The notes under the pieces: model-generated
The model's input: only the letters and a program-made list of their open reading frames with translations
Database searches by the model: none
What the model was told of the DNA's origin: nothing
DNA from: Enterobacter chengduensis
GTDB taxonomy: Bacteria > Pseudomonadota > Gammaproteobacteria > Enterobacterales > Enterobacteriaceae
DNA: 64,000 bases
Assembly: GCF_001984825.2 (NCBI RefSeq)
Contig: NZ_CP043318.1
Coordinates: forward strand, 4,402,001-4,466,000
Direction: 5' to 3'
Part shown: piece after piece, positions 6,008 through 51,840 of the stretch
How positions within the stretch are numbered: the first letter of the stretch is position 1
Layout of the letters: every line of letters begins with the position of its first letter
Program-made: the position numbers and the translations under genes

Positions 6008-6012
6008 GAAAC

Positions 6013-6043: not shown

Positions 6044-6157
6044 AAAACTTCATCCATCTGTTGCGTCCCCGATCAAACGTGGAATCTCGCAATAATGATT
6101 CCTTTTCCAGGATGAGATATCATTTCCAGATAATCGGCCAGCAGCCTCTGAGGGACC

Positions 6158-6482: not shown

Positions 6483-6513
6483 CTGGCCGCGCTGCGGGCG
6501 AGCGTGGAAGAGG
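6483..6513 (+). repeat. 31-bp direct repeat, copy 2 (duplicate of patA 3' end)
   Basis: Matches 3739-3769 at 30 of 31 bases and in the patA frame would read LAALRASVEE, then V and a TGA stop. The sequence upstream of it is not obviously patA-like, apart from a short GTAAA match a few bases before. Confidence 0.85.
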
Positions 6514-7016
6514 TATGACATAAAGACCTACTCTTCAGATGTAGAGGGCGTGTTTTCAATTGTCTATATGATTCAATATTATTTCTTGAATATATTTATA
6601 GAAAATTCTGTCATCGCGTTAATTTATCGACCGCATCAATAACTTCACAGCATTAGCCGTCCCTTCGATTTTACAAAATACTACCGACGCATGTAACAGG
6701 TATAAAGTACAGTGTTATTATAAACACTAATAACCTTAATAGTACATCAATAAATACAAGGCGTTAAGAATAAAGTAATGCACCACGCCAAAATCATTAA
6801 TTACAAGTTAATTCATTTTTAAGTAAAAATAATACTAAAGGAGTAGTTCCAATATTGATCTTTTTTTCACCTAAACATAAAATAAACTTCAACGTTGTTT
6901 ATTTGTAAAGCTAATATCATCCTTCCACTTCACATGCTAACGGATTGAGAAAGCCGTTCCAGACAAATTAAACATCAAATCAACCAAATAGAACTTTATT
7001 TAATAAAAGGATTTGT

Positions 7017-7559: not shown

Positions 7560-7573
7560 TTAATTAACCCGAT

Positions 7574-7592
7574 AACCCTCAGCACGAGGGCT
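7574..7592 (+). terminator. weak hairpin between pilin and chaperone genes
   Basis: AACCCTC and GAGGGCT can pair across a short loop, 15 bp after the pilin stop. There is no strong T run. Such partial terminators or stabilising hairpins are common after the major pilin gene of fimbrial operons. Confidence 0.35.
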
Positions 7593-7633
7593 ATATAGAT
7601 CCTTTATTTCTGAAGCAGGTAAGAGAAGTCGTC

Positions 7634-8320
7634 ATGAAGAAAATGTGTAAAATAGCCAGCGGACTCTTATTTGTGTCAGTAATGGTATCAAATGCCTATG
7701 CTGGAGGAATTGCCCTGGGCACGACTCGCGTTATTTATCCTCAGGGTGACAAACAAGTTTCACTTCCTGTTATCAACTCTTCAACAAACAACGCTTTTTT
7801 AGTGCAATCGTGGGTTGCCAATGCCGATCAGTCTAAATCTTCTGATTTTATCCTGACCCCACCGTTATTTGTCATGCATCCTAAAAAAGAGAATACCATA
7901 CGGATTATGTACGTCGGGCCTGATTTACCGACCGATCGCGAAAGCGTATTTTACTTAAATAGCAAAGCGATACCTGCGGTGGATAAAAACAACTTGCGCG
8001 GAAACACGCTGCAAATTGCCACTCAAAGCGTCATTAAATTATTTGTACGCCCTAAAAAGCTACCGACCCCTTCTATTGATGCGCCGAAAACGCTTCGCTG
8101 CCGGGTCGCTAATGGCAAAGTTACCATTACCAATCCATCGCCGTATTACGTCTCGCTGGTGAAGTTTAACGTCGGCACCACGCTGCTTAAGAACAACATG
8201 GTTTCACCAAAAAACACGCTTACGGTCGACGTACCCGGTGAACAGGGCGGACAGGTGAGCTTCCAGACGGTTAATGACTTCGGTGCGACTACGCCGGTGC
8301 AGTCATGTCCATCCGCCTAG
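7634..8320 (+). CDS. periplasmic fimbrial chaperone (BcfB-like)
   Basis: 228-residue PapD/FimC-family chaperone. A signal peptide to about residue 23 (ending SNAYA) is followed by two Ig-like domains. The first has GTTRVIYPQGDKQVSL and the family signature region LPTDRESVFYLN with the conserved DRES; the G1 strand region carries basic residues and alternating hydrophobics (QSVIKLFVRP). It completes the pilin fold by donor-strand complementation and delivers subunits to the usher. Its 3' end overlaps the longest possible usher frame by 16 bp. Confidence 0.93.
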   Translation: MKKMCKIASGLLFVSVMVSNAYAGGIALGTTRVIYPQGDKQVSLPVINSSTNNAFLVQSWVANADQSKSSDFILTPPLFVMHPKKENTIRIMYVGPDLPTDRESVFYLNSKAIPAVDKNNLRGNTLQIATQSVIKLFVRPKKLPTPSIDAPKTLRCRVANGKVTITNPSPYYVSLVKFNVGTTLLKNNMVSPKNTLTVDVPGEQGGQVSFQTVNDFGATTPVQSCPSA

Positions 8321-8367
8321 CCGCGGGAACGAACGCTGCGCCACTAACCTCCAGGCATAAACAGACA

Positions 8368-10995
8368 ATGCATCGTAAGCAACAACATTTGTTACACACA
8401 GGTAACTATTCGCTGGCGCCCGTAGCGCTGTCAGTCCTGTGTATGTTGGCCTCTTTGGATGCACGGGCAAGTTACTACTTCAACCCTGCATTTCTCTCCA
8501 GCGATCCATCCGCGGTTGCAGATTTATCACGCTTCAGCGCTGATGGGCAGGCACCTGGCACATATCGCGTCGATCTGTGGCTAAATGACAATTTTCAGTC
8601 AACGCGAGATATTGTCTTCAACGCACGTAAAGCCTCCGCACCAGGCGATGACGATACAGGCCTGACGGCCTGCTTCACGCTGAAATCCTTAGACGATCTC
8701 GGCGTAAATGTTCACTCTATTCCTGCGCTGAAAGATGTCTCCCCCGACAGCTGTATCGATATTGCGACGGCCATTCCGGCCGCAAGCGCGCGTTTTAATT
8801 TCGAACAGCAGCGTCTGGATCTGAGCGTTCCGCAGGCGGCCATTCGCAACAATGCGCGCGGATACATCCCGCCAGAACAATGGGACGAGGGCATCAATGC
8901 CCTGCTACTGAACTATAACTTCAGCGGTTCTCACAGCCGTTCTCAGGGGGAGAACAGTTCAACATCAAAGAACTACTTCCTGAACCTGAACAGCGGGCTC
9001 AATCTTGGGCCGTGGCGCCTGCGCGACTACTCGACCTGGAATTACAGCCACTCCGGCTCCAGCAGTTATAACGACTGGGAACACGTTTCAACCTATGCCC
9101 AGCGGGCCATTATTCCGCTTAAGAGTCAGCTTACGGTTGGGGAAAACTACACCCCCTCCGAGGTGTTTGATAGCCTGCCCTTTCGCGGCATCCAGCTAAA
9201 CTCCGATGACAACATGTTGCCAGATAGCATGAAGGGCTTTGCGCCGACTATCCGTGGCATCGCGCGTTCAAACGCTCAGGTCACCGTAAAGCAGAATGGC
9301 TATACCATTTATCAAAGCTATGTACCGCCTGGCGCCTTTGCCATTAACGACCTGTTCCCTACCTCCTCCAGCGGTGACTTAACCGTAGAGGTGAAAGAAT
9401 CGGACGGCAGCATAAACAGCTACTCCGTTCCGTACTCCGCCGTTCCGGTTTTACAGCGCGAAGGCCGCGTAAAGTATGCCGCAACGGTTGCCCGGTATCG
9501 CAGCAACAGCAGTCAGCAGAACGATCCGAATTTTGCGCAGGGCACGGTAATTTGGGGCCTGCCAAAAGGCTTTACGGCGTATTCAGGCTCACAATTGTCG
9601 TCCAATTATACCGCCCTTGCCCTGGGCGGCGGTGTGAATATGGGCACGCTGGGCGCGGTCTCGGTGGATCTCACCCATGCAAAAAGCGAACTTTCGGATG
9701 ACTCCACGCACAGCGGGCAATCCATTCGTTTTTTATATGCCAAATCGCTCAATGGCTTAGGCACCAACTTCCAGCTTCTGGGGTATCGCTACTCGACTTC
9801 CGGGTTCTATACCCTTAATGAGACAACCTATAAGCGGATGGAAGGGTACAACGGCGATAGCGGTGATAATGAGCACCAGGACGATCAAGACACCACGCCG
9901 GTCTGGACGGAATATTACAACCTCTATTACACCAAACGCGGCAAATTGCAGTTCAATATTTCCCAGCAAATTGCGCAGGCTGGCTCAATCTTCCTTACCG
10001 GCAGCCAGCAAACGTACTGGCATACTGACAAAAAGAACACGCTTGTGCAGGTCGGATACAGCGGTACAACGGCGGGTATCACCTACAACCTAAGCTACAA
10101 CTACAACAAAGCCCCCGGTCTGGAGAAGAGCGACAGCATCTATTCTTTGACGCTGTCGCTGCCTATCAGTCTGTGGCTGCACCCCGGCGGGGACGTGACA
10201 AAACGTGTCAATAATATGTACGCCACGGCGGGAACGAGTACAGACAATCACGGTAAAGTTTCAAACATCGCGGGTTTGAACGGAACGCTGCTGGAAGATA
10301 ACAACCTGTCCTATGCCATTCAGCAGGGTTATCAAAATCAAGGGGAGGGAGCCAACGGCTCGCTCAACGCCGAGTATGACAGTGCGTATGGCAATATCAA
10401 CGCCGGTTATAACTACAGCAACAACGGTGACTATCAGCAGATCAACTACGGGCTTGAAGGCGGCGTTGTCTTACACCGTAACGGCCTCACGCTCAGCCAG
10501 CCGCTCGGTGAAACGAATGTACTTATCGCCGCCCCGGGTGCCGGCAATGTGAAAGTTGAGGATGGACCAGGCATCCATACCGACAGTCGCGGCTACGCGA
10601 TCGTCCCTTACGCCACGGCCTATCACCGTAACCGGATGGCGCTGGATACCAACTCCTTGCAGGACGATCTTGATATTGATGAGGCGGTCGCGCACGTCGT
10701 TCCAACTCAGGGCGCTCTGGTGCGCGCAACCTTCAAAGCACGCCAGGGCGCGCGTGCGCTCTTTACCCTGATGCACAACGGCAAGCCCGTGCCGTTTGGC
10801 GCAGTGGTTGCCCTCATCGACGAAGGTGGAAATACCATTGTCGGCGAAAATGGCGAAGCCTACCTGTCGGGTCTGAGCCAGAAAGGGTCACTCCACGTCC
10901 AGTGGAGCGACGCAGTTGACGGCCAGTGCAACGCAAATTATCAGTTACCCGAAACGAAGCAAACTCTGGTTCGTTTGAAAGCGGAGTGTAAGTAA
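8368..10995 (+). CDS. outer-membrane fimbrial usher (BcfC-like)
   Basis: About 875 residues from the ATG at 8368; an in-frame ATG at 8305, inside the chaperone gene, would add 21 residues. Neither start has a strong ribosome site, and 8368 leaves a more plausible signal peptide ending at DARAS. Visible family features: N-terminal periplasmic domain YYFNPAFLSSDPSAVADLSR, the 24-strand barrel region rich in alternating aromatics, the plug/middle domain (FAPTIRGIARSNAQVTVKQN), and the C-terminal CTD with ALFTLMHNGKPVPFGAVV. It forms the pore that assembles and anchors the pilus. Confidence 0.94.
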   Translation: MHRKQQHLLHTGNYSLAPVALSVLCMLASLDARASYYFNPAFLSSDPSAVADLSRFSADGQAPGTYRVDLWLNDNFQSTRDIVFNARKASAPGDDDTGLTACFTLKSLDDLGVNVHSIPALKDVSPDSCIDIATAIPAASARFNFEQQRLDLSVPQAAIRNNARGYIPPEQWDEGINALLLNYNFSGSHSRSQGENSSTSKNYFLNLNSGLNLGPWRLRDYSTWNYSHSGSSSYNDWEHVSTYAQRAIIPLKSQLTVGENYTPSEVFDSLPFRGIQLNSDDNMLPDSMKGFAPTIRGIARSNAQVTVKQNGYTIYQSYVPPGAFAINDLFPTSSSGDLTVEVKESDGSINSYSVPYSAVPVLQREGRVKYAATVARYRSNSSQQNDPNFAQGTVIWGLPKGFTAYSGSQLSSNYTALALGGGVNMGTLGAVSVDLTHAKSELSDDSTHSGQSIRFLYAKSLNGLGTNFQLLGYRYSTSGFYTLNETTYKRMEGYNGDSGDNEHQDDQDTTPVWTEYYNLYYTKRGKLQFNISQQIAQAGSIFLTGSQQTYWHTDKKNTLVQVGYSGTTAGITYNLSYNYNKAPGLEKSDSIYSLTLSLPISLWLHPGGDVTKRVNNMYATAGTSTDNHGKVSNIAGLNGTLLEDNNLSYAIQQGYQNQGEGANGSLNAEYDSAYGNINAGYNYSNNGDYQQINYGLEGGVVLHRNGLTLSQPLGETNVLIAAPGAGNVKVEDGPGIHTDSRGYAIVPYATAYHRNRMALDTNSLQDDLDIDEAVAHVVPTQGALVRATFKARQGARALFTLMHNGKPVPFGAVVALIDEGGNTIVGENGEAYLSGLSQKGSLHVQWSDAVDGQCNANYQLPETKQTLVRLKAECK

Positions 10996-12009
10996 ATGCT
11001 CAAACCTTCATCAACGTTATTACTCATTCTGCTGACCTCCTTCAACTGTCTGGCAAGCGTTTGTCATAACGTCAAGAATGCTGCCTCTCTGGTGAATTAC
11101 GATTTAACAACAACGCTCACCAAGGAACAAAACCAGCTTGGCCAGGCGACTGAAATGACTAAGTCTCAGTTTGTTGGCGTAGACGCGATATGTCCTGAGT
11201 ACGATCCTACTAACACCGATAGTCGAACATATCGAAGCTACACCACCAGCTTCCCCGTGGTTGAAACCGACGGACAATGGCAGTACTTAACACTCGATCC
11301 AGAGTATATAAACGGCGCCATGAGCATTACCGACACCGACGCTGGGGTTTTCTATCCCCCCATTAACTACATTCATATGGGTCGAAACACGCAGGTAAAT
11401 AGGCTAAAAAGTTTCGGGGTTTATGACTCGAATTTAACGTTCCGGTTAAAGGTCGTTAAGCCGTTTATTGGTTCCGTGGTCATTCCAGCCAGAACGATGT
11501 TTAACGTCTATGTCACGACCAATAATAAAGACCCGCTTTCTACCATCGTTTACCAAATTACTTACAGTGGTGTTGTCACCGTTCCGCAAAACTGCGAAAT
11601 CAACGGCGGTCAGATTATCACCGTTGATTTAGGGAAGCTGAATAGCGCCGCCTTTAACGAGGCGGGGAAAAAGCCGTATAACGTGCCAGAGAAAACCTTC
11701 AACGTGCCCATTGCCTGCAACGGCGACGTCATTTCTCCAGCGCATCTGACATTGCGTATGCAAGCCACGCCAGACAGCCATATTGCCGACGCCATTGCGA
11801 CGGATAACCAGGATGTTGGCGTAGTGGTCACCAGTGAAAACGGTTCAATTTTAAAGCCCAACGATATCAACAGCAGCGTCGATTTCACGACCAATGACGC
11901 AGGCAACGCCAACATTACGCTGAAAACCTATCCTGTCAGTACGACCGGTAACGCGCCAGCGGAAGGGATATTTACGGCACTTGCCTGTTTGCGAGTCGAT
12001 TTTGCCTAG
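10996..12009 (+). CDS. fimbrial tip adhesin (BcfD/FimH-type)
   Basis: 337 residues, starting immediately after the usher stop codon. The signal peptide ends around CLAS (residue 21). The N-terminal half (about 22-195) would be the receptor-binding lectin domain. The C-terminal half (from about PQNCEINGGQIITVDLG) has pilin-domain features: the CEI start, VPIACNGD, and a beta-zipper-like end (LACLRVDFA). Length and two-domain layout match FimH-class adhesins. Its position after the usher agrees. The receptor is unknown. Confidence 0.85.
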   Translation: MLKPSSTLLLILLTSFNCLASVCHNVKNAASLVNYDLTTTLTKEQNQLGQATEMTKSQFVGVDAICPEYDPTNTDSRTYRSYTTSFPVVETDGQWQYLTLDPEYINGAMSITDTDAGVFYPPINYIHMGRNTQVNRLKSFGVYDSNLTFRLKVVKPFIGSVVIPARTMFNVYVTTNNKDPLSTIVYQITYSGVVTVPQNCEINGGQIITVDLGKLNSAAFNEAGKKPYNVPEKTFNVPIACNGDVISPAHLTLRMQATPDSHIADAIATDNQDVGVVVTSENGSILKPNDINSSVDFTTNDAGNANITLKTYPVSTTGNAPAEGIFTALACLRVDFA

Positions 12010-12018
12010 GTGCGATGC

Positions 12019-12564
12019 ATGAAAACATTCTTGTTAAAAGTAATAACGCTGTTGGCTTTGCTCAATACTCTTGCCGCGTACGCCGACAGTGGGGCGGTCT
12101 ATAACCTGCGTGTGACGGGAACCATCATCAGCGAGTCCTGTGAAGTCGACACATCAAGCCAGGAGCAAAGCGTCTCACTGGGTGAGTTCGATAGCAGCGA
12201 TTTCCCATCAACTGGAGCGACATCGGCATGGGTGCCGTTTAATATTCAGTTGAAAAATTGTTCAAAAGCAATCAACGGGACCAAAATCTGGTTTAGTGGC
12301 CTGGCCGATACTGACAACCCGGCGCTGCTTGCGTTAAGCGACACGGGCAAAGGAACAGGCAGCACGATGGCGACAGGTCTCGGTGTGGAAATTAGCGATG
12401 CGGACCAGAGCATAGTGCCCATTAACAATACTGAATCAGCTACCTTTACGCTTCGGACCGGTGATAACGAACTGACATTCAACCTGCGTTATAAATCAAC
12501 CCGTCAGGACATGACGCCGGGGGACGCGACCGCCGTGATGTATTTTGACCTTCTTTATCAATAA
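12019..12564 (+). CDS. minor fimbrial subunit (BcfE-like)
   Basis: 181 residues from ATG 12019 (MKTFLLKVITLL), preceded by AGGTG; a GTG at 12010 is a less likely start. The signal peptide ends near AAYA. The mature part has the pilin disulfide pair (ISESCEVD and LKNCSK) and ends AVMYFDLLYQ, with a penultimate tyrosine. Probably an adaptor or tip-fibrillum subunit. Confidence 0.87.
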   Translation: MKTFLLKVITLLALLNTLAAYADSGAVYNLRVTGTIISESCEVDTSSQEQSVSLGEFDSSDFPSTGATSAWVPFNIQLKNCSKAINGTKIWFSGLADTDNPALLALSDTGKGTGSTMATGLGVEISDADQSIVPINNTESATFTLRTGDNELTFNLRYKSTRQDMTPGDATAVMYFDLLYQ

Positions 12565-30883: not shown

Positions 30884-32125
30884 ATGAGCACACAATCAAG
30901 CGGTCTGTTCGCGCGCCTGGCGCAGGGCAGCCTCGTTAAACAAATTCTGGTCGGGCTGGTATTGGGTATTCTGCTGGCCATGGTGTCAAAACCTGCTGCA
31001 GAGGCCACTGGGCTGCTCGGGACGCTGTTCGTCGGCGCACTGAAGGCCGTCGCACCGGTTCTGGTTCTGATGCTGGTCATGGCCTCAATTGCCAATCACC
31101 AGCACGGACAAAAAACCAACATTCGCCCTATTCTGTTCCTGTATCTTCTGGGAACCTTCTCGGCTGCCTTAACGGCCGTTGTATTTAGCTTCCTGTTCCC
31201 GTCTACGCTGCATCTGACCAGCGCGGCCGGTGACATCACGCCGCCGTCCGGCATTGTCGAAGTGCTTCGCGGCCTGCTGATGAGCATGGTCTCTAACCCC
31301 GTCACGGCGCTGATGAACGGAAACTACATCGGCATCCTGGTCTGGGCGATTGGTCTGGGCTTTGCGCTGCGTCACGGTAACGACACCACGAAAAACCTGG
31401 TCAACGATTTGTCGAACGCCGTCACCTTTATGGTGAAGCTGGTGATTCGCTTTGCGCCAATCGGGATCTTCGGGCTGGTCTCCTCCACGCTGGCCACCAC
31501 CGGTTTTGACGCGCTGTGGGGCTACGCGCAGCTGCTGGTTGTTCTGGTCGGCTGTATGCTGCTGGTGGCGCTGGTGATCAACCCGCTGCTGGTGTTCTGG
31601 CAGATCCGCCGCAATCCGTATCCGCTGGTGCTGACCTGCCTGCGCGAGAGCGGCGTGTATGCGTTCTTCACCCGCAGCTCTGCGGCAAATATTCCGGTTA
31701 ACATGGCGCTGGCAGAGAAGCTGAACCTGGACCGCGATACCTACTCCGTCTCCATTCCGCTGGGTGCGACCGTGAACATGGCTGGCGCGGCGATCACCAT
31801 CACCGTGCTGACCCTGGCCGCGGTGCATACGCTGGGTATTCCGGTGGATCTGCCAACGGCGCTGCTGCTGAGCGTGGTGGCATCGCTGTGTGCCTGTGGC
31901 GCGTCCGGCGTGGCGGGCGGCTCGCTGCTGCTGATCCCGCTGGCGTGCAATATGTTCGGCATCCCGAACGAAATCGCGATGCAGGTTGTGGCCGTCGGCT
32001 TTATCATCGGCGTACTGCAGGACTCCTGCGAAACGGCCCTGAACTCTTCTACCGACGTGCTGTTCACCGCAGCGGCCTGCCAGGCGGAAGACGCGCGTTT
32101 AGCGAAGAATGCCCTGCGCGGATAA
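30884..32125 (+). CDS. sstT: serine/threonine:Na+ symporter SstT
   Basis: 413-residue inner-membrane carrier of the dicarboxylate/amino acid:cation symporter family. It imports serine and threonine with sodium. Visible: several hydrophobic segments, the serine-rich re-entrant loop [14 protein letters not shown] and the substrate-region motif [20 protein letters not shown]. Ribosome site CAGGAAT. Followed by a strong terminator. It supplies substrates that the tdc enzymes further downstream degrade. Confidence 0.96.
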
Positions 32126-32130
32126 CAGCA

Positions 32131-32158
32131 AAACGGCAACCCTGAGGTTGCCGTTTTT
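32131..32158 (+). terminator. rho-independent terminator of sstT
   Basis: AAACGGCAACC, loop CTGA, GGTTGCCGTTTTT: an 11-bp stem with a T tail, 5 bp after the sstT stop. Confidence 0.9.
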
Positions 32159-32168
32159 AGTGTTTGTA

Positions 32169-32202
32169 CCCTCTCCCCGTGGGAGAGGGCCAGGGTGAGG
32201 GC
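32169..32202. repeat. CCCTCTCCCC palindromic repeat, short form
   Basis: CCCTCTCCCCGTGGGAGAGG followed by GCCAGGGTGAGGG. Between the convergent sstT and uxaA genes. Confidence 0.75.
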
Positions 32203-32219
32203 ATCAGGCCGCACCCGAC

Positions 32220-35613: not shown

Positions 35614-36912
35614 ATGCGTAAAATTAAAGGGTTACGTTGGTATATGATCGCACTGGTGACGTTAGGCACCGTGCTGGGCTACCTGACGCGTAACACCATA
35701 GCGGCGGCTGCGCCTACGCTAATGGAAGAGCTGCACATTTCGACCCAGCAATATTCCTACATCATTGCGGCCTACTCCGCGGCGTATACCATCATGCAGC
35801 CGGTTGCTGGCTATGTTCTGGATATTTTAGGCACCAAAATCGGCTATGCCTTCTTCGCCGTCACCTGGGCTATTTTCTGTGGCGCCACGGCGCTGGCAGG
35901 CAGCTGGGGCGGGCTCGCGCTGGCGCGTGGTGCAGTAGGTGCCGCCGAAGCCGCGATGATCCCGGCAGGGCTGAAGGCCAGCTCTGAGTGGTTCCCGGCG
36001 AAAGAGCGTTCCATTGCAGTCGGGTACTTTAACGTGGGCTCGTCGATTGGCGCGATGATTGCGCCGCCGCTGGTGGTGTGGGCTATCGTGATGCACAGCT
36101 GGCAGCTGGCGTTCATTATCTCAGGCGTGCTGAGCTTCGCGTGGGCCATGGCGTGGCTGATTTTCTACAAGCACCCGCGCGACCAGAAAAAACTGTCTGA
36201 AGAAGAGCGTGAATACATTATTGGCGGTCAGGAAGCGCAGCATCAGGTCAATAACGGCAAGAAAATGTCCGTCTGGCAGATCCTGGGAACCCGTCAGTTC
36301 TGGGGTATCGCCCTGCCGCGCTTCCTGGCTGAGCCGGCCTGGGGTACCTTCAACGCGTGGATCCCCCTGTTCATGTTTAAGGTCTACGGCTTTAACCTGA
36401 AAGAGATCGCCATGTTCGCCTGGATGCCTATGCTGTTCGCGGACCTGGGCTGTATCGTCGGCGGCTACCTGCCACCGCTGTTCCAGCGCTGGTTTGGTGT
36501 GAACCTGATTGTTTCCCGTAAGATGGTGGTGACCATGGGCGCGCTGCTGATGATTGGCCCGGGGATGATCGGCCTGTTCACCAGTCCGTATGTGGCCATT
36601 GCCCTGCTGTGCATCGGTGGATTTGCGCACCAGTCCCTGTCCGGCGCGCTGATTACGCTCTCGTCTGACGTCTTTGGTCGTAACGAAGTGGCCACCGCCA
36701 ACGGTCTGACGGGTATGGCCGCCTGGACCGCGAGCACGATGTTCGCCCTGGTGGTCGGCGCGCTGGCGGACACCATCGGCTTTAGCCCGCTCTTCGCCGT
36801 GCTGGCCATCTTCGACCTGATGGGCGCGGTGGTGATCTGGACGGTGCTGAAAAACAAATCCGCCGAGGAGCTGCAGAAAGAGACGGTTGGGAGCCCCGCG
36901 ACGCAGAGCTAG
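35614..36912 (+). CDS. exuT: hexuronate transporter ExuT
   Basis: 432-residue major facilitator superfamily carrier of the anion:cation symporter group. It imports galacturonate and glucuronate with protons. Twelve hydrophobic segments; motifs are GYLTRNTIAAAAPTLMEEL near the first helix and RGAVGAAEAAMIPAGLKASS in the first half. It is divergent from uxaCA and followed by a strong terminator, then by the giant glycosidase gene instead of exuR. Confidence 0.97.
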   Translation: MRKIKGLRWYMIALVTLGTVLGYLTRNTIAAAAPTLMEELHISTQQYSYIIAAYSAAYTIMQPVAGYVLDILGTKIGYAFFAVTWAIFCGATALAGSWGGLALARGAVGAAEAAMIPAGLKASSEWFPAKERSIAVGYFNVGSSIGAMIAPPLVVWAIVMHSWQLAFIISGVLSFAWAMAWLIFYKHPRDQKKLSEEEREYIIGGQEAQHQVNNGKKMSVWQILGTRQFWGIALPRFLAEPAWGTFNAWIPLFMFKVYGFNLKEIAMFAWMPMLFADLGCIVGGYLPPLFQRWFGVNLIVSRKMVVTMGALLMIGPGMIGLFTSPYVAIALLCIGGFAHQSLSGALITLSSDVFGRNEVATANGLTGMAAWTASTMFALVVGALADTIGFSPLFAVLAIFDLMGAVVIWTVLKNKSAEELQKETVGSPATQS

Positions 36913-36958
36913 CGTCAATGCACCTACTCGGCTAATCCCCCAAAAACCGCTGACCCGC

Positions 36959-37006
36959 AAAACCGTTCACTTAAGATATTTTGAGTGAACGGTTTACTGT
37001 TTTTTA
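36959..37006 (+). terminator. rho-independent terminator of exuT
   Basis: AAACCGTTCACT pairs with AGTGAACGGTTT (12 bp), followed by ACTGTTTTTTAG. Confidence 0.9.
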
Positions 37007-37498
37007 GAGGCACGAATAATCCTCAGCAACTCTGGCGCGTGCAGACCCAATGTTTTGTGCCCCTCTTTCAAGAGGGGCATTAGATTACCTATCCCGGACC
37101 GAATATTTACGCCGCATATCTGTGTCATTTTTAAATCACCCCCGTGTTTTTTTAACACAAAATAAACATTCATCTTCGATTATAATCCCTTTAGACATAG
37201 CATTATTACGATGTATTAATTCGAAATATGTGAAATGGGATGATAAAAATAACCTCCTATATTAACCATTGTTTTGCCAGTCAATATAGTGAGTTTATTC
37301 ATGTATTTTCATAAACCCTGTTTCTTTAGCCACCTCTTGCTATAGCTTTCCATTTGGAATGGTCCTCACCCTGGAATTTATTTTAACAAGCAGTTCGAGC
37401 ATCTGAAATAGTTTGTACCACCAACCTCTCTGAAAAATTACTCTTGATGGTAATTATTGTAAGCAGAGTTAATTTTAAACCTATAGAAGGTAAATTCA
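37007..37498. other. AT-rich region upstream of the giant glycosidase gene
   Basis: No gene is supported here. A second hairpin (TGCCCCTCTT...AAGAGGGGCA, 37058-37079) follows the exuT terminator. From about 37130 to 37498 the sequence is strikingly AT-rich compared with both flanking core genes, typical of acquired DNA and of H-NS targets. No clear ExuR-like palindrome or CRP site was seen, and no confident -35/-10 pair. Confidence 0.6.
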
Positions 37499-40400
37499 AT
37501 GAACAACCGTATAGTTTATTTTCAGGATTATATTGAGAGCAATCAAAATATTAGCACCGCTTCAGCAGACAACTACAGCATGACGCACTATGATGGAACC
37601 CCAAGAATACCTAATGGTCAATCCGTTACTAATATTCCGGCTGGAGCATGGTTAAAGTTTACGGGTTCCATTCCAGCCGGATATTATGCTACCTGTATGC
37701 TGTACGCATCAGCAATGGCAGGCAACCAGAAGGTCGAGATCCGCCTGAAATCTCTTGAGGCAGAGCCGACATGGCGTTTTAGTGTAAATACCGTTTCTGT
37801 CGAAAAGTTTTTCACTGAAACCGTAGGGCAGGCTGTAAATATCCCGGAAAGCGAAGAAGATATCGATATCTATTTTACCTTCCCGGATGGCTTTACCGGC
37901 TATCTGAACTGGTTCGTGTTCTGCCAGAACCCTGGTAATGAAACCCAGGAAGATAAACAGCGGCGTATGCTGTGGTTCAATGAAGCCCGCTTCGGGCATA
38001 TGATCCACTGGGGAGCGTACTCTGTATTGGGGCGCGGCGAATGGGTGATGAATAATGAACATATCCCCAAAGATGAGTATATTCAGGAAGCCTGCATCCC
38101 GTTTGACCCACAAAATTATGATCCAGAGTACTGGGCCTATGTTATCCAGAGTACGGGTCAGAAATACCTGACCGTCACCACCAAACACCATGACGGCTTT
38201 GCCATGTTCGATACAAACGTTATCGACTTCGCACCGTATGATGTCGAAAATACCGCTAGCATTCATGCCTCCGTATTGCGCCCTCTGGCACAGGCCTGTC
38301 GTGCACGCGATATCCGTTTTTGCTGCTATTACTCATGGCTTGACTGGGGCAACGTGAATGAAGTGGCTATCGAAAACGCCGCAGCAGTGGACCCTGCAAC
38401 CATTAATCCGGACGATGTCACTCGCTACCTGTCCGAGATAAAAGAACATCTCAAAGAGCTGATTGAAATCTTTGATCCGGCCCTGATTTGGTTTGATGGT
38501 TCCTGGGCTGCCTTTATTAACAGCTCAGTCTCTCAGGACATTGGTAACTTCCTGCGTCGCCTGTCGCCGGATATCATCATTAACGATCGTATCGGTAACT
38601 CTGCCGGCGACTTCTCGACAGCGGAACAAAGCATTCCAGCAGGTGCGCAAAGCGGCCCATGGGAAGCCTGCATGACAATGAACGACAGCTGGGGCTATAA
38701 CAGCAGCGATACCGACTGGAAATCAACCCAAACCTTGCTGGCCGATTTGCTGGATTGTGCCAGCAAAGGCGGTAACCTGCTGCTGAACACTGGGCCGACC
38801 GGTGACGGGGTCATCCCTTCGGCCAGTATCAGCCGCCTTGCGGAGCTCGGGGACTGGATGAAAATCTGGGGCGCTGCCGTTTACAATACCCGCGCCGGAA
38901 CGCTGGACGTCTCTGCCCAGCCGGGCGCTTATTGTACCGTCGGACGGGATAATACGCTGTACATCACACTGACGGAACGACCCGATGACGGGCTGCTGCG
39001 TATCGATTTACCCGTGAATCTGCCGGAAAAAGCGTACTGGCTGAATGCACCAGAAACGCCTGTGGCATACCAGACTGAAGACGGTTTTATGGTCGTCCCC
39101 CTGCCAGATGCATTATCGGACGATCTTGGCGTCGTACTGGCAATGACATTCGATGAACTTCCTCAGTCACGCCAGTACCCGGACAAAGCCCTGTTCCGCA
39201 GTGCAACGGCCAGCAATGTCTGGAATGGTGATACCACAAATTACGGTCCGCAGAATCTGACCGATGGTAATGACAGTACTCGCTGGGCCGCAGATAAAAC
39301 TGATAATGTCACGCTGACGATTAATCTGAGCCAGGCGGAATCGTTTGACCGGATCGCCTTCCGCCAGTATGAGCAGCGTATTGACGCATTCCGGATTGAT
39401 GTGTATTCCGGTGCAACCATGCTGACCTCTGTGTCTGGTTCACAACCTGCACAGAACTATGTGGCTTATCTGCCGAAAGCCATCACCGCAGACCGTATTG
39501 TGCTGACCATCATCTCTTGTCTGGATGCGACCGATCCCGCCAGCCTGTACACCTTCTCCGTATTTAATTCTGCCGATACGCTGTGGCCCGTCAATCTGCC
39601 GGTAAACCTGGCACAGGGTGCTCCAACCAGCGCAAGTTCCGTCTGGGATGGTGATGAAAAGCAGTACAGCGCATCCTACGCTACGGATGGGAATACCAGT
39701 ACGCGCTGGGCCGCCAATGATAATCCGAAGCTACCGATTACGCTGACGGTCAATTTCCTGAAAGAGGAAACGTTCGACCTTGTCCGTATCAACGAAGTCA
39801 CCTACGGTGACGGTACAACACGCATTGCCGCCTTTACGCTGCAGACGCTGGGTGAAGATGGTCAGACCTGGAACGACGTATTAAGTGGTACCGACATCAG
39901 CGCACCACTGGTCTTACCCTACCTAACCCGCAGCACTGCGATTCAAATTGTCATTACAGCCCTGACGGGGGCGGGTGGACCGTCATTCTGGGAGTTCAGC
40001 GTGTACCAGACGGCGCGGGAACTGACGACCATGACAGACGCTGAGCTGCTTGACGCGGAAGCCCGCCAGTGCTTCGAATACCTCTGGCGCGAGGCAAATC
40101 TGACCAAAGGTTCTGTTGGCTATGGTCTGGTGGCGGATACCAAAGGTTCGCGCAGCGCCAGCATCGCCTGCTCCGGTTTTGCCCTGAGTGGCCTGGTGAT
40201 TGCCGCTGAGCGTGGCTGGATCAGCCACGATCTCGCGCAGCAGCGCTGCCTTGATTCTCTGAACACCATTTATCAGAACGTCCCGCAATATAAGGGTTTC
40301 CTGTACCACTTTATTAATATGGATAACCCGATGGAAAGCAGCGGTGCGGAGTACTCCACCGTCGATACCATGCTGGCGCTTAACGGGATCCTGACCGCCG

Positions 40401-43400
40401 GTCAGTATTTTGGCGGCGACTGCGCCACCGTTGCACAGCAGATTTTTGATCGCGTTGAGTGGGATCAGGCGCTGGATTCCAGCGGCTATTTCACCATGTC
40501 GTGGGATGATAACTTCAAGATGAACTCCGCCGACTGGGGAGGATACGCAGAACAGTTCTGTATGTATCCGATGGCGCTGGGGTCAACCACTCATGCACCG
40601 ACACAGGGGGCGGATCTGTTTTATTCTCTTGAGCGTAAATATGGTCATTATGCTGACAGTGGCGATTTGATTTACGTGTGGGATGGCTCACTCTTCACCT
40701 ACCAGTTCTCGCATGCCTGGCTGGATTTCCGCCGCTTATGGGATCGTCAGGGTGCGGATTGGTGGCAGAACTCTGTCAATGCCAGTAAGGCCAACCAGCT
40801 GTTCTGTATTGATAACCACGATGCGTTCCCCTCGCTTGATGCGACTCACTGGGGGTTGACTGCCTGCCATGGCCCTGCCGGTTATAATGCCTTTGGCACA
40901 CCGCCATCCGGCTACATCGGGGCGAACGATCAGCACTACACCGACGGCACCGTCAGCCCGAGTGGCCCGATTGGCAGCCTGCCATTTATGCCACAAGACG
41001 TCCTGGCCGCCATGCGCCGCTGGTATAATGACCCGCGTTTGTGGACCGGCTACGGCTTCAGCGAATCGTTTAATCTCTCCAGCCCTGCGCCGTGGTATTG
41101 CCCAACAAACTCCGGCCTGATTAAAGGGTTAACGCTGTTGATGATTGAAAACTACCGCAGTCGTCTGGTCTGGGACACTTATATGAGTCACCCAGTACTG
41201 CAGCGAGGGCTGCCGGTTATTTTTGATAACCAGGCCGCGGAAACGATTTTCCAGGAAACCGATCCGTCTATCACCTACAGCAGTATGACAAACTGGTGGC
41301 AGGCGACAGGACGCCCGCAAAGCACTGATGGTGCCAGTATGGTGGTACAGAAAGCAGACGCCTGGTTTGAATTCACATTCAACAGCCGAAATGTGGCGTA
41401 TTACGGTGAGCGGGATAATGACCAGGGGGATATTGATTTTTATCTCGACGGAGAATACCACGGCACCGCCAGCGCCTGGGGAGCAACACATGAAGACAGC
41501 GATGTCATTTACGCGATTACCAATCTGGAGCCAACGTCTCACGTACTGAAAGGCGTTAAACGTAGCGGGGAGTGGATGACGCTGGATGCGCTAAAAACCT
41601 ACGCCAGCCACAGTTTTGATGCTGTCATCACCTCTGCGGCGGCGGCGGGAAATATGGCCAGCGTCGTGTTGACCCTGACGCAGAGTGCCGATTATCAAAG
41701 CGCCAGTAATAGTGAATCCTGGCAGGTTGATCAGAACGCAAGCATTTCAGCTGTCGTTCTGAGTCGGGATAAAAAAACGGTTACCCTTACGGTCACCGGT
41801 ATTCAGGACGGTGTCACGTACCACCTGGATGCTGCACATGTTCGGAATGAAATCCTGAGTGAAACGCTGGATAAACGGATTTTGACATTCACCTGCGATG
41901 TACTTCCACCAGAGCGGGTTTACGATGACACCGATCCCGATATTGTTTATGAAGGTTCTGACTGGTGGCCTGCCGGTAACCGTGATGCCAGTATTTTTTA
42001 TAATGAAAGCGCGGTTGCCGGAAATAATGGTGACAGTTTCAGCCTGACGTTTACCGGTACCGGCATTGCCTATTACTGTGAAACCAACAGCGACCAGGGT
42101 AATGTTGATATTTATATTGATGGCGTATTGGATAAAACCGTGAGTACCCACACTGATACGCATCAGGAGAGCGATATTCAATACCTGAACCTCACGTTAC
42201 CCCTTGGGGTTCATACCATCAAAGGCGTCAAGCGTAGCGGTACCTGGATGCAGCTGGATGCATTAAAGGTTTATAACCCAGGTGATATTGCTGTCAGCAG
42301 CATTTCCACTGACAGTGAAGATAATATCATTGTCACCTTTAACCAGGCGCTTAATGAGACTCATGCACTGGATCTCAGCCACTACGCCCTGGATGGCGAT
42401 GCGATTATCACAGCGGCTACCATTGATCGCCAGCTGTACCGGGTCACCCTGGCCACCCAGGATCTGCTTCTGAATAGCAGCTATACGCTGACCATCAGTG
42501 GTATCGATAACCAGAATGGGACCGCAACAATCGGAAAACTCACGGCCACCTTTGTCAACCGCGAAGGCCTGGTCAGATGGTATGCCTTTGACGATCTGGC
42601 GCAGGGCGTGGTCACTGAAAGCATAAGCGGCGATACCAGCGCCACCCTTAATGGCACAGTCTCTGCTGCGGTCGGGAAGTCAGGCTCCGGCTGCCTGTTC
42701 GGCAATGACGGCTATATTTCGCTGGGCAACTGGGATCTGCTACAGCAGCAGTATTTCACCATTGAGGCGTGGATCAACCCACGGGCCATGAGCGGTTCCG
42801 GCGCCATTATCAGCCAGCAGATGTCTGGTAATAATGACAGCCGCCTGATGCTGTACTACAGCGGAAACCAGCTCTATTTCTCCATGTCATCCGATGATAA
42901 CAGCGAGAACGTGGGTATGCATACCGAAGGGTATATTTATGACGATGGTAATCACTGGGCGCATGTGGCGTTGATCCGCAATGGCGATATCTTCAACCTG
43001 GCGATTAACGGTAATATCCTGCGCACCTATGCTGACAACTTTACGCAAACGAATAAGCAGCCCGTCTGGATTGGCGCCTGCATGAGCGAAAGCGGCAGCA
43101 CCGATCAATTCCTGGGGATGATTGATGAGCTCCGTTTCTATAACTGTGCGGTAACGCCTGACAAACTGGTTGAACACTACCGCCAGCTGGCGGACGACAA
43201 CTACTCACTGGCGTTAATCAATGGTTCTGCCGTGGTGACGTTCAAGCAGGCACAGCCGGAACCACCAACCGCCGATGATTTCCATTGCTGGATCAAAATC
43301 AATGACGAGATGAAAGTCGGTTTACCGGTGACTTCATTTAGCTGGGATAATAAGACTCTGCAAGCCACGCTACTGTTTGACGAGATCCCGCGGGCAGCAG

Positions 43401-44848
43401 TGGTGCAGAACATCACGATTACCGTGCAGTATAACGAGTTACCGACAAAAGCCTCACTCTTCCTGGACGCGGTGGAATTTGCTGCACCTTCGGTTGAGCG
43501 TATTGCGCTGGCAGGGGATCGTAAAACCCGCGAGGTGCTGACGGCGGTATGGGAGATGCAGGACCCTGCCGGGCTGAAAGAAAATGGCAGTGCCTATACC
43601 TGGTGGGTAGGTGATACCACTGACGGTGAGTTCGAGCAGGTAATTGGCGTCTATACGCCAAGTATGATGCTGCTACCTGAACATGCCGGAAAATATATCC
43701 GTGTTGGTGTGACGCCGCGCAACGAGCGTTTTGCCTCAGGCGAGACGATGTATTGCACCACTACGCAAACTGTCGAAACACAGGAGGGTAACCCGCGTAC
43801 CGACTGGTTTATGAAGGCCAAATACGGTGTTTCACATCACCTCCTGCCGAATTATCAGGGCATGTCACCGGCAGTACCGCCTGATGAACGCTGGCAGGAA
43901 GATGATACCTGGGATAGCTATCTGAGCACGTTTGACGTTGACAGCTATATCAAAGCCGTTGAGGCGCTGGGCGTTGGGTTTGTCATGATCACCATCGACC
44001 AACACTCCGGCTATAACCTGGCGCCGTCCTCCGTCTATGACAGCATTCTGGATATTGCGCCGGGGGTTCGTTCTCCATCACAGCGGGATTTACTTATGGA
44101 AATCGCTGAAAAGCTGAAGGAAAAAGGTATTCGCCTGATGTGCTATTTCATGGGGTACCCGCCGGGTAAAGCCAGCCTGACGTTCTATGATGACAACTAT
44201 AACCAGCACTCCCCGGATCGCTGGGGGGATTACCTGGTCACCCGCACCATGGAGGTGGGACCATTCAGTGATGTCATGACCCGTGAAGCCACCCGGATGC
44301 ACGCCGCCGTGGTGAAAAGTTTTGGCGAACACTACGGTGATATGCTGGCAGGCTTCTGGTTTGATGGTATGTACGATACCGACTGGTTTGAGGATACCAG
44401 CGAGCAGTACAACATCAATACGCTGATGGATGCAGCCAGGGCAGGCAACCCGGATCGTATTGTCACTGGCGCCGGCATGGGGGGCTCTGTTTATATGGAC
44501 TTCCCGCATGGCGAAAGCTATGGCAAAACGGATGCGAATGGTAACGAGTTCATGAACGATTACCCAACCAGTCGCTGGTACAACAATGATGGTTATCATC
44601 AATGGTTTGAATGGATTGCGTTAGGTGATGTTGCCATCAACGCAGGCTGGGGAGTCCCAACCAACAGCGCCGACGGTCATCACTATGATACCGATGAACT
44701 GGTCACCTGGATTAAAGGTGCTACAGATAAGCAAGGGGTGGTGTGTATGGACGTTCGTGTTAACCGGTTCGGTGAGATTGATAGCTTCGGCGCAGAACAG
44801 GTAACAGCCGTTTGCAATGCTGTATATCCTCCTTCGGATAAAGCGTAA
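37499..44848 (+). CDS. giant multidomain glycosidase (GH29-like / CBM32 x2 / GH144-like / LamG / GH29-like)
   Basis: 2449 residues, read without interruption from an ATG behind AAGGT. Domains by motif: 1-145 beta-rich N-terminal module; 155-460 GH29 alpha-L-fucosidase-like (ARFGHMIHWGAYS with HWG at 170-172, KHHDGF at 229-234, nucleophile-type D333 in LIWFDGSW); 556-690 and 700-836 F5/8C (CBM32-like) modules, each with a TDGN(D/T)STRWAA block; 843-1236 glycoamylase/GH144-like alpha-barrel (GFLYHF, YSTVDTMLALNG, GGYAEQFCMYPMALGS); 1241-1368 and 1471-1594 duplicated beta modules, each followed by an Ig-like stretch; 1688-1893 LamG; 1900-2092 Ig-like; 2100-2445 second GH29-like domain (GFWFDGMYD at 2285-2293). 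No signal peptide, membrane anchor or secretion motif is visible. It lies between exuT and exuR, next to AT-rich DNA. Families were assigned by eye; substrates and activity are inferred. Confidence 0.85.
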   Translation: MNNRIVYFQDYIESNQNISTASADNYSMTHYDGTPRIPNGQSVTNIPAGAWLKFTGSIPAGYYATCMLYASAMAGNQKVEIRLKSLEAEPTWRFSVNTVSVEKFFTETVGQAVNIPESEEDIDIYFTFPDGFTGYLNWFVFCQNPGNETQEDKQRRMLWFNEARFGHMIHWGAYSVLGRGEWVMNNEHIPKDEYIQEACIPFDPQNYDPEYWAYVIQSTGQKYLTVTTKHHDGFAMFDTNVIDFAPYDVENTASIHASVLRPLAQACRARDIRFCCYYSWLDWGNVNEVAIENAAAVDPATINPDDVTRYLSEIKEHLKELIEIFDPALIWFDGSWAAFINSSVSQDIGNFLRRLSPDIIINDRIGNSAGDFSTAEQSIPAGAQSGPWEACMTMNDSWGYNSSDTDWKSTQTLLADLLDCASKGGNLLLNTGPTGDGVIPSASISRLAELGDWMKIWGAAVYNTRAGTLDVSAQPGAYCTVGRDNTLYITLTERPDDGLLRIDLPVNLPEKAYWLNAPETPVAYQTEDGFMVVPLPDALSDDLGVVLAMTFDELPQSRQYPDKALFRSATASNVWNGDTTNYGPQNLTDGNDSTRWAADKTDNVTLTINLSQAESFDRIAFRQYEQRIDAFRIDVYSGATMLTSVSGSQPAQNYVAYLPKAITADRIVLTIISCLDATDPASLYTFSVFNSADTLWPVNLPVNLAQGAPTSASSVWDGDEKQYSASYATDGNTSTRWAANDNPKLPITLTVNFLKEETFDLVRINEVTYGDGTTRIAAFTLQTLGEDGQTWNDVLSGTDISAPLVLPYLTRSTAIQIVITALTGAGGPSFWEFSVYQTARELTTMTDAELLDAEARQCFEYLWREANLTKGSVGYGLVADTKGSRSASIACSGFALSGLVIAAERGWISHDLAQQRCLDSLNTIYQNVPQYKGFLYHFINMDNPMESSGAEYSTVDTMLALNGILTAGQYFGGDCATVAQQIFDRVEWDQALDSSGYFTMSWDDNFKMNSADWGGYAEQFCMYPMALGSTTHAPTQGADLFYSLERKYGHYADSGDLIYVWDGSLFTYQFSHAWLDFRRLWDRQGADWWQNSVNASKANQLFCIDNHDAFPSLDATHWGLTACHGPAGYNAFGTPPSGYIGANDQHYTDGTVSPSGPIGSLPFMPQDVLAAMRRWYNDPRLWTGYGFSESFNLSSPAPWYCPTNSGLIKGLTLLMIENYRSRLVWDTYMSHPVLQRGLPVIFDNQAAETIFQETDPSITYSSMTNWWQATGRPQSTDGASMVVQKADAWFEFTFNSRNVAYYGERDNDQGDIDFYLDGEYHGTASAWGATHEDSDVIYAITNLEPTSHVLKGVKRSGEWMTLDALKTYASHSFDAVITSAAAAGNMASVVLTLTQSADYQSASNSESWQVDQNASISAVVLSRDKKTVTLTVTGIQDGVTYHLDAAHVRNEILSETLDKRILTFTCDVLPPERVYDDTDPDIVYEGSDWWPAGNRDASIFYNESAVAGNNGDSFSLTFTGTGIAYYCETNSDQGNVDIYIDGVLDKTVSTHTDTHQESDIQYLNLTLPLGVHTIKGVKRSGTWMQLDALKVYNPGDIAVSSISTDSEDNIIVTFNQALNETHALDLSHYALDGDAIITAATIDRQLYRVTLATQDLLLNSSYTLTISGIDNQNGTATIGKLTATFVNREGLVRWYAFDDLAQGVVTESISGDTSATLNGTVSAAVGKSGSGCLFGNDGYISLGNWDLLQQQYFTIEAWINPRAMSGSGAIISQQMSGNNDSRLMLYYSGNQLYFSMSSDDNSENVGMHTEGYIYDDGNHWAHVALIRNGDIFNLAINGNILRTYADNFTQTNKQPVWIGACMSESGSTDQFLGMIDELRFYNCAVTPDKLVEHYRQLADDNYSLALINGSAVVTFKQAQPEPPTADDFHCWIKINDEMKVGLPVTSFSWDNKTLQATLLFDEIPRAAVVQNITITVQYNELPTKASLFLDAVEFAAPSVERIALAGDRKTREVLTAVWEMQDPAGLKENGSAYTWWVGDTTDGEFEQVIGVYTPSMMLLPEHAGKYIRVGVTPRNERFASGETMYCTTTQTVETQEGNPRTDWFMKAKYGVSHHLLPNYQGMSPAVPPDERWQEDDTWDSYLSTFDVDSYIKAVEALGVGFVMITIDQHSGYNLAPSSVYDSILDIAPGVRSPSQRDLLMEIAEKLKEKGIRLMCYFMGYPPGKASLTFYDDNYNQHSPDRWGDYLVTRTMEVGPFSDVMTREATRMHAAVVKSFGEHYGDMLAGFWFDGMYDTDWFEDTSEQYNINTLMDAARAGNPDRIVTGAGMGGSVYMDFPHGESYGKTDANGNEFMNDYPTSRWYNNDGYHQWFEWIALGDVAINAGWGVPTNSADGHHYDTDELVTWIKGATDKQGVVCMDVRVNRFGEIDSFGAEQVTAVCNAVYPPSDKA

Positions 44849-44903
44849 AAGCGCCCTCTAACGTTTACTGAAAGGACCCATTTACGTCTTCCTGCCAGAA
44901 TAA

Positions 44904-44927
44904 ATCCCCGCTTTTAAAAGCGGGGAT
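44904..44927. terminator. perfect 24-bp palindrome after the giant gene
   Basis: ATCCCCGCTTTT followed directly by its reverse complement AAAAGCGGGGAT. It lies 55 bp after the stop of the giant gene and could stop transcription from the left and shield exuR. Only a short T-containing stretch follows. Confidence 0.65.
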
Positions 44928-45008
44928 ATTCACTTCATGGCAAAATATGGAGAGTGGTACGCAAAAGTGGTATAACAAATCATCTGCCGTACCCTGCCTG
45001 GAGCGCAT

Positions 45009-45785
45009 ATGGAAATCACCGAACCACGTCGTTTATATCAACAGCTTGCTGCGGAGCTGAAAGATCGCATCGAGCAAGGGGTCTATCTTGTCGGTGATAA
45101 ACTTCCCGCCGAGCGCTTCATCGCCGATGAAAAAAGCGTCAGCCGCACCGTGGTGCGTGAAGCGATCATCATGCTGGAAGTGGAAGGCTACGTTGAGGTA
45201 CGCAAAGGCTCCGGCATTCACGTCATATCCAATCTGCCGAAACACTCTCCCGCCGCGGACGAAAGTCTGGAATTCGCCAGCTATGGTCCGTTCGAGCTGC
45301 TCCAGGCTCGCCAGCTCATCGAAAGCAATATTGCCGAATTCGCCGCGACGCAGGTGACCAAGCAGGACATCATGAAGCTGATGGAGATCCAGGAGAACGC
45401 GCGTAAGGAAAAATGTTTCCGCGATTCCGAGTGGGATCTGCAGTTCCACGTTCAGGTCGCTCTGGCAACCCAAAACACGGCGCTGGCGGCAATCGTTGAG
45501 AAAATGTGGACTCAGCGCGTTCACAACCCGTACTGGAAAAAACTGCACGACCACATCGATTCCCGTACCGTCGACAACTGGTGCGACGATCACGATCAAA
45601 TCCTTAAGGCGCTGATTCGTAAAGATCCGCATGCCGCTAAGCTGGCGATGTGGCAGCACCTGGAAAACACCAAGCAGATGCTGTTCAATGAAACCAGCGA
45701 TGACTTCGAATTCAACGCTGACCGCTATCTTTTTGCCGATAATCCGGTTGTTCATCTCGATACGGCGTCCAGTGCCGCAAAATAG
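45009..45785 (+). CDS. exuR: hexuronate regulon repressor ExuR
   Basis: 258-residue GntR-family (FadR subfamily) repressor of uxaCA, exuT and related genes; released by galacturonate/tagaturonate-type inducers. N-terminal winged helix ([40 protein letters not shown]) and a C-terminal helical FCD effector domain ([20 protein letters not shown]). In E. coli it follows exuT directly; here an 8-kb insertion separates them, so it must use its own promoter. Confidence 0.97.
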
Positions 45786-50937: not shown

Positions 50938-51840
50938 TTATTTATTATGGTGGGTGAAGAGTTTCGGTATTTCACGCAGGCACCACGACTTGGCTTCGCC
51001 CATGCTGTCGCGACGCCATGCCATAATAATGTCCACTTCGCTGGTGTACTCCGGGCTCACCACCCGCAGCCGCCCTTCCGCGATATCTTTTTCCACAAAC
51101 GGGTACGGCATGGTCGCCACGCCAAGCCCTGCCAGCAGCGCCTGGCGTTTGTCTTCCAGTGAGGTCACCGTCAGACGAGGCTGTTTATCCAGCAGTTGCA
51201 CCGTCAGTACCGGACGCTCGCGCGCGGTATCCGCGACCGCCACCCCGCGATACTTCACGCGCGTCACTTCAGAGAGCGGCTCCGGCTCCTGGTGAATCGG
51301 GTGATTGGGTGCGGCAACATAGACGTTCATGACGCTGTAAAGCTTGCGCGAGTTGATTTCCGATGAGGAACGAAAGTGCATGTCCGGCGCAATGACGATA
51401 TCCGCCCTGCCCGTCTCCAGACGTTCCCACGCCCCTGCCAGCACCTCGGTGATGATCGACAGCTGCGTATTGGCCTTCGCCGCCAGGCGATCCACCAGCG
51501 GGAACAGCGCTTCCGTCGGCACCAGCGCTTCGGTCACTAACGTCAGGTGGGTCTCCCAGCCGCGCGCCAGCGCTTCGGCGTCCGTCGTGAGCTTGTCCGC
51601 CGCTTCCAGCAGGACGCGGCCGCGCTCCAGCAGCATTCGGCCCACGTTGGTGAATTTTGTTCGATGACCGGAGCGGTCAAACAGCACCACGTCGAGCTCT
51701 TCCTCCAGCTTCTGCATGGTGTAGCTCAGCGCAGACGGAACGCGCCCCAGCTCATCTGCCGCCGCCGCAAAACTGCCGCGGCGGTCAATCGCGTCCATGA
51801 CGCGAAGCGCCTCAAGCGTCAATGCTCTCTCTTTAGCCAT
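50938..51840 (-). CDS. yhaJ: LysR-type regulator YhaJ
   Basis: 300 residues. N-terminal winged helix (LRVMDAIDRRGSFAAAADEL, VPSALSYTMQKLEEELDV) and a periplasmic-binding-like effector domain. In E. coli YhaJ activates yqjF in response to dinitrotoluene metabolites and also acts on virulence genes in pathogenic strains. It is divergent from yhaK. Confidence 0.95.
   Translation of the reverse strand: MAKERALTLEALRVMDAIDRRGSFAAAADELGRVPSALSYTMQKLEEELDVVLFDRSGHRTKFTNVGRMLLERGRVLLEAADKLTTDAEALARGWETHLTLVTEALVPTEALFPLVDRLAAKANTQLSIITEVLAGAWERLETGRADIVIAPDMHFRSSSEINSRKLYSVMNVYVAAPNHPIHQEPEPLSEVTRVKYRGVAVADTARERPVLTVQLLDKQPRLTVTSLEDKRQALLAGLGVATMPYPFVEKDIAEGRLRVVSPEYTSEVDIIMAWRRDSMGEAKSWCLREIPKLFTHHNK

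Follow-up and report, generated by a model that had tools for sequence, protein, structure and literature searches.

Type 10 secretion offers the closest described setting for a large glycan-active enzyme encoded beside genes for a holin and a peptidoglycan hydrolase. Going by the parts of the sources available to us, the Salmonella ChiA operon combines a LysR-type gene, a holin, and a hydrolase (PMC10109510), and the lytic cassette of Yersinia entomophaga uses controlled lysis for T10SS release of its cargo, almost none of which has a signal (PMC10847048). According to the accessible part of a 2022 review, Sec takes chitinase cargo across the inner membrane in Serratia, and holin passage in Gram-negatives had been demonstrated for endolysins alone (PMC9527704). 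Export of very large signal-less proteins from Gram-negative cells is an open problem. Among GH144/clan GH-S beta-1,2-glucanases, the available text of PMC12102758 describes E239 of XcSGL as catalytic, with a structure of the E239Q mutant, and E142 as the favored base of CpSGL. FucWf4, a "GH29-like" fucosidase of Wenyingzhuangia (9pnj/9pnk), is described as non-clustered within GH29 and active on sulfated fuco-oligosaccharides (PMC11189522, in part). We found no publication joining alpha-L-fucosidase with type 10 secretion, no fucosidase reported as type 10 cargo, and no published description of the multi-catalytic architecture reported here; no title among the matches listed names a fused GH29 and GH144 enzyme.

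The window (the whole 64,000-nucleotide stretch of Enterobacter chengduensis DNA analyzed here) encodes a protein of this architecture between exuT and exuR. The single uninterrupted frame of 2449 residues reported by the initial annotation is real upon re-reading of the sequence, and the product has an estimated mass, from its length, of ∼270 kDa. We put at roughly 50% the probability that it is an acquired, single-gene, glycan-degrading exoenzyme that most likely leaves the cell by type-10-like holin/endolysin release. Features of the locus are as follows.

35614..36912, + strand: exuT, MFS hexuronate transporter, flanking gene
36913..37498, + strand: AT-rich leader, 37.4% GC
36922..44933, + strand: inserted segment between exuT and exuR, ∼8.0 kb, from alignment to the empty site in genome G242 (locus L069)
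36960..36995, + strand: terminator-like hairpin after exuT, with differing sequence at the empty site
37499..44848, + strand: multi-catalytic glycosidase gene, 2449 residues, ATG start, sole stop at its end
37598..37921, + strand: CBM6, residues 34-141 (PF03422, E 4.8e-8, 33.8 bits versus a cut-off of 28.9)
37943..38872, + strand: GH29 alpha-L-fucosidase domain, residues 149-458 (Alpha_L_fucos PF01120, E 8.7e-88)
39203..39517, + strand: F5/8 type C module 1 (PF00754, E 7.2e-10)
39629..39886, + strand: F5/8 type C module 2, residues 711-796 (PF00754)
40061..41212, + strand: GH144-like domain, residues 855-1238 (8xul_A, XCC2207, E 8.6e-39; PF10091)
41306..41575, + strand: CE2_N-like jelly roll 1 (PF17996, E 0.0059, below cut-off)
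41609..41893, + strand: Ig-like module after jelly roll 1 (predicted model; no Pfam family above cut-off)
42017..42250, + strand: CE2_N-like jelly roll 2, residues 1507-1584 (PF17996, E 3.8e-6, 27.4 bits versus a cut-off of 27.9)
42698..43162, + strand: LamG module, residues 1734-1888 (Pfam, E 2.1e-22)
43571..43759, + strand: Ig-like (IG_AIR9-like) module (PF23197, E 0.0048, below cut-off)
43796..44782, + strand: second, divergent GH29-like domain (PF01120)
44904..44927, no strand assigned: perfect 12-bp inverted repeat, terminator-like on the minus strand
45009..45785, + strand: exuR, GntR/FCD regulator, flanking gene, named after the gene order of E. coli

Modules thus follow the order CBM6, GH29, two F5/8C, GH144-like, two CE2_N-like/Ig-like pairs, LamG, Ig-like, and GH29-like. 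The proposal of several catalytic domains in one chain is supported: Pfam HMM and PDB searches give GH29, GH144-like, and GH29-like matches. In the whole-protein Pfam search, PF01120 scores 295.5 bits (cut-off 25.2) with its best stretch at residues 149-458, and Glycoamylase PF10091 covers residues 1012-1232 (E 1.3e-54). The GH144-like domain is matched along its whole length in the PDB sequence search (8xul, 8.6e-39; 5gzh, 2e-32). For the last domain, the piece 43748-44845 searched separately gave PF01120 at E 8.4e-11 (42.3 bits, cut-off 25.2), and PDB sequence searches returned weak matches only; the A2 profile search modeled whole proteins. The initial annotation listed the GH29, F5/8C, glycoamylase-like, LamG, and GH29-like domains correctly and overlooked the N-terminal CBM6. 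Its "duplicated beta modules" are indeed duplicated and now read as CE2_N-like jelly rolls, each paired with an Ig-like module; the CE2_N-like match is slightly under the cut-off in the window protein and above it in relatives P0012 and P0013. Matches of LamG to clostridial neurotoxin-complex chains reflect a common jelly-roll fold and nothing more. A structure model of residues 1-1188 was poor (mean pLDDT 62.8) and was set aside.

Sequence conservation points to candidate catalytic residues in all three domains. The first domain resembles GH29 alpha-L-fucosidases (6gn6 and 9eu4) over the full length of the match and in a conserved D and E; the listed PDB relatives are chains of 342-616 residues, to which the window protein adds two further catalytic domains. 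D333 and E376, located by alignment to 6gn6, are invariant in the 14 rows of alignment A4, as is E389. We take the aligned residues of 6gn6 to be its nucleophile and acid/base; D333 is a candidate nucleophile and E376 a candidate acid/base, with E389 as an alternative. D956, E1018, and F1066 of the GH144-like domain are also invariant across the 14 rows of A4, and counterparts of them are seen in the clan enzymes. E1018 is opposite a Q in 8xul, a numbering consistent with the E239Q mutant structure of XcSGL, F1066 aligns with XcSGL F286, and the acidic residue of 5gzh that is the counterpart of D956 is taken as CpSGL E142. E1018 is the candidate acid and D956 the candidate base. Unlike in the clan enzymes, the tyrosine that aligns with XcSGL Y367 in the window protein is unconserved in one group of relatives (form A, below). 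In the GH29-like domain, D2289 (in WFDG) and E2339 are invariant in the 14 rows of alignment A3, which include distant LamG proteins; E2339 sits in a low-confidence region of the structure model. This domain is 19% identical to FucWf4 and has few close relatives (15 and 10 proteins, in searches limited by length and shared words). All three domains are predicted to be catalytic.

Relatives of the glycosidase occur in four forms. A minimal form of ∼1250 aa, found in Paraburkholderia and Budvicia, ends after GH144. Form A (1465-1488 aa) stops at about residue 1464 in the numbering of the window protein, at the border of the Ig-like module 41609..41893; form B (1617-1829 aa) has the LamG and GH29-like domains plus a GH144-like domain of its own; and form C is full length (∼2450 aa). 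P0012, of form B, begins at the border where form A ends, and P0013 begins earlier, at 1248. A single module border (∼1464) marks the end of shorter forms and the start of one other, so the forms appear to have arisen by fusion or fission at this position. One simple fusion event is unsupported by trees of the two parts: full-length P0006 groups with minimal forms in the N-terminal tree (16 rows), and split form P0012 falls among full-length proteins in the C-terminal tree (14 rows). The trees favor neither fusion nor fission. Forms A and B were not seen together in one genome in the family-wide scan of 392 genomes.

Of 7989 candidates scored in a protein search, 14 reached E ≤ 1e-3, and five of these 14 cover 97-100% of the query with the full architecture at 62-91% identity (three named Salmonella, two unnamed). 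The initial annotation knew of no described enterobacterial protein with this domain order; uniqueness is unsupported, since these five share domain order and length. As for known homologs with an established function, no characterization was found for any of the five. Proteins named "alpha-L-fucosidase" in Salmonella, Citrobacter, and Siccibacter belong to the same family and are at different genomic sites where seen; no characterization was found for these either. Among 72,556 plasmid records, 370 match, and two (pRSE40, of Salmonella, and pRSE21) match across most of the query. The copy on pRSE21 (L002, 3001-10325) matches in two pieces, with the later part alone annotated, and is possibly interrupted. 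Eight of 392 genomes match at E ≤ 1e-20 in the family-wide scan, three of them at one ordinary GH29 stretch only, leaving G001, G002, G051, G325, and G379. Further genus searches found matches in 2 of 17, 1 of 61 (the genus of the window), 1 of 1, and 2 of 14 genomes, and in 2 of 144 at E ≤ 1e-100. The glycosidase family is therefore rare and patchy. In a scan of genome contigs that yielded 22 loci, the match extends from residue 1 past residue 1240 at four (L003-L006) and lies mainly near the GH29 stretch at the others. The single match among 61 genomes of the genus of G242 is a decayed copy in G411 (residues 1-1246) within an apparent flagellar-type cluster, with ORFs read by eye. The Budvicia locus is beside apparent ilvIH/leu genes, named from ORF reading. 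In G051 (L038, 7823-9667), a full-length-type copy is heavily deleted, and its 254-aa remainder is nearly identical to P0025 of Edaphovirga cremea. Carriage by phages was considered and rejected: tblastn against 50,697 phage records gave 23 matches, all below 60% identity and none covering 80%, and two scans of viral contigs found no relative.

The gene was probably acquired. G242, the best of 392 sampled genomes across exuR-yqjA (95%), matches as far as 36921 and resumes at 44934, the two aligned parts being separated by 31 bases, and four further relatives (L070-L073) align on both flanks without the insert. No mobile-element ends were found on the insert, nor any exact direct or inverted repeat of at least 10 bases common to both of its ends. 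The glycosidase ORF has 52.5% GC (GC3 0.591), relative to 59.4% (0.764) for exuT and 53.4% (0.647) for exuR; the similarity in GC to exuR makes base composition, taken by itself, a weak argument for acquisition. The initial suggestion that the gene looks acquired is supported by the extra DNA between exuT and exuR.

The N-termini of the family differ from those of a related architecture. Hydrophobicity was screened as 10-residue means over the first ∼54 residues, which differs from a signal-peptide predictor. In all 14 proteins of forms A, B, and C (P0001-P0013 and P0016), a strongly hydrophobic N-terminal stretch is absent (maximum 1.09), whereas all seven LamG-GH29-like proteins (P0017-P0023) reach 2.05 or more, and three of the seven have a Por-secretion tail (PF18962). 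The comparison consists of these 14 and 7 proteins, with twelve other proteins uncounted. The deposited start of P0004 is trimmed; where the other proteins start, the pRSE40 frame reads MANKIQYF, and no hydrophobic stretch is apparent there by eye.

Some relatives are linked to lysis genes. In Citrobacter sp. FP75 (L006) and a second genome of that genus (G379, L036), a small ORF, a holin, a LysR gene, and an M15 endolysin gene precede the glycosidase gene. The Citrobacter holin corresponds to phrog_126 (weak, E 2e-5), the M15 endolysin to phrog_465, and the small ORF is weakly CBM-like. Small proteins upstream of the holin at the Citrobacter loci (L036, 16589-17371 and 14594-15022) have no obvious signal; the product of the latter is weakly CBM_4_9-like, judged by its L006 counterpart. 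On pRSE40 (L001), a LysR gene adjoins the full-length gene, and two holins (phrog_198 and phrog_217) and an M15 gene are within 2.7 kb on the other strand. Near them (7486-12113) are two related, unannotated proteins of ∼425 aa (49.5% identical) and an fn3 protein, which are candidate co-released cargo; the fn3 protein was considered as chitinase-like, and Pfam with a limit of E ≤ 0.1 identified nothing in it beyond fn3 and, weakly, Ig-type families. The cassette is present at 3 of 10 loci, with pRSE40 and pRSE21 treated as a single locus. A plasmid search with the cassette DNA of Citrobacter returned a single record, in which an M15 gene of Acinetobacter matched (65.8% over 15%).

The linkage to holin and M15 genes is not general, because, of nine genomes that carry a family member or a remnant of one, five are without such an M15 (E ≤ 1e-8), among them G411 (L077). 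With the cassette proteins as queries, no M15 or holin was found at L003, L004, L005, L037, or L038, and L004 has one weak LysR match (27%, E 1e-4). In the window, no ORF of at least 40 aa resembles M15, LysR, or two of the three holins at E ≤ 1e-3 (the holin queries excluded the 92-aa holin of pRSE40), and the one LysR observed (50938-51837) is unmatched by the cassette LysR query. G242, G147, G369, and G309 gave no M15 match at E ≤ 1e-10; a GH108-type muramidase is present in two of these four and absent from G242. Within the genus of the window, 12 of 61 genomes have an M15 match at E ≤ 1e-10. One of two such loci read is in a prophage-like region; at the other (L083 in G455, 852-8115), an M15 endolysin of the cassette kind is, by reading, beside RHS/Tc-like genes.

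The links of relatives to holin, M15, and LysR genes suggest type-10-like release as the best mechanism for export, for which we infer about even odds. One chain would carry an exo-alpha-L-fucosidase (GH29), a GH144-like inverting glucanase, and a second GH29-like fucosidase, and the sugar-binding and Ig-like modules would hold the enzyme on a complex, partly fucosylated polymer or surface, the putative substrate. The enzyme, without a recognizable signal peptide, would exit through holin/endolysin-dependent release, served in the window strain by a cassette presumably located outside the window. As with type 10 cargo such as Salmonella ChiA, the Serratia chitinases, and the Y. entomophaga cocktail, a large glycan-active enzyme is beside a holin, a peptidoglycan hydrolase, and LysR in three relatives, and, as in most Y. 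entomophaga cargo, a signal is absent. In contrast, no cassette was seen in the window itself, and the Serratia chitinases are Sec-dependent. Because Serratia cargo uses Sec and, as of 2022, only endolysins had been shown to pass holins, signal-less cargo would need the lytic mode of Y. entomophaga or something new. A fucosidase assay would be easy and the glycosidase is found both with and without a neighboring cassette, so the family could help test models of holin passage and lysis. Further points of interest are its GH29-related domain, about which little is known, and a pair of forms related by natural fusion or fission. We tentatively raise the possibility, itself rather doubtful, of a new kind of type 10 cargo. 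These giant, signal-less, three-catalyst enzymes would have been assembled, at a fixed border, from a pair that also exist separately, and would travel among Enterobacterales (the N-terminal part in Paraburkholderia too) as one-gene islands; their C-terminal domain would be an undescribed GH29-related family.

Alternatively, the protein may be an intracellular enzyme that trims imported oligosaccharides, with the lysis genes near relatives being chance neighbors. We consider this unlikely. The lack of a hydrophobic N-terminus and of a cassette found in the window fits such an enzyme, as does the finding that the minimal-form genomes (Paraburkholderia and Budvicia) have no such M15 at E ≤ 1e-8 and none seen nearby. 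However, CBM6, F5/8C, and LamG are binding modules usual in extracellular enzymes, and the LamG-GH29-like relatives have hydrophobic N-termini and, in three of seven cases, PF18962. Chance is also a poor account of M15 genes 41 and 48 bp from the glycosidase gene when, at E ≤ 1e-8, there is just one such gene in G001 and two in G379.

Another improbable reading is that the glycosidase belongs to a host-interaction cocktail, for example in the insect gut, released by a type 10 system and acting on mucus or other host glycans. The company of the pRSE40 gene (two holins, M15, an fn3 protein, and two related unannotated proteins) and the M15 of the same kind, by reading, beside RHS/Tc-like genes in a congeneric genome fit such a cocktail, and type 10 systems are reported to release chitinolytic and toxin cargo (PMC10847048 and PMC10109510, as far as available). 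Yet such surroundings are absent at most loci read, the chitinase reading of the fn3 protein is without Pfam support, and the beta-1,2-glucans that are substrates of GH144 are bacterial polymers (available part of PMC12102758).

That the gene is a decaying or nonfunctional passenger is very improbable. Copies in G411 and G051 have decayed, and that of pRSE21 is in two pieces and partly annotated, but the window gene has an intact frame of 2449 codons. Relative to the pRSE40 copy, its catalytic domains are the most conserved (GH29 82%, GH144 84%, and GH29-like 82% identical; remaining modules 61-70%), and dN/dS is ∼0.07 overall, which is only a sign of purifying selection because dS has reached saturation (for GH29 and GH29-like, no value could be calculated).

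The proposal of the initial annotation that products feed the neighboring hexuronate (exu/uxa) pathway has placement between exuT and exuR, and nothing else, in its favor and is scarcely credible, because the other loci read (Salmonella plasmid, Budvicia, G411, and others) lie elsewhere and none shares this site, and no uronate-specific domain was found by Pfam in the whole protein. Elsewhere in the window, a ∼100-bp interspersed repeat (32114-32214) is located between sstT and uxaA, with more copies in the congeneric loci L069-L071.
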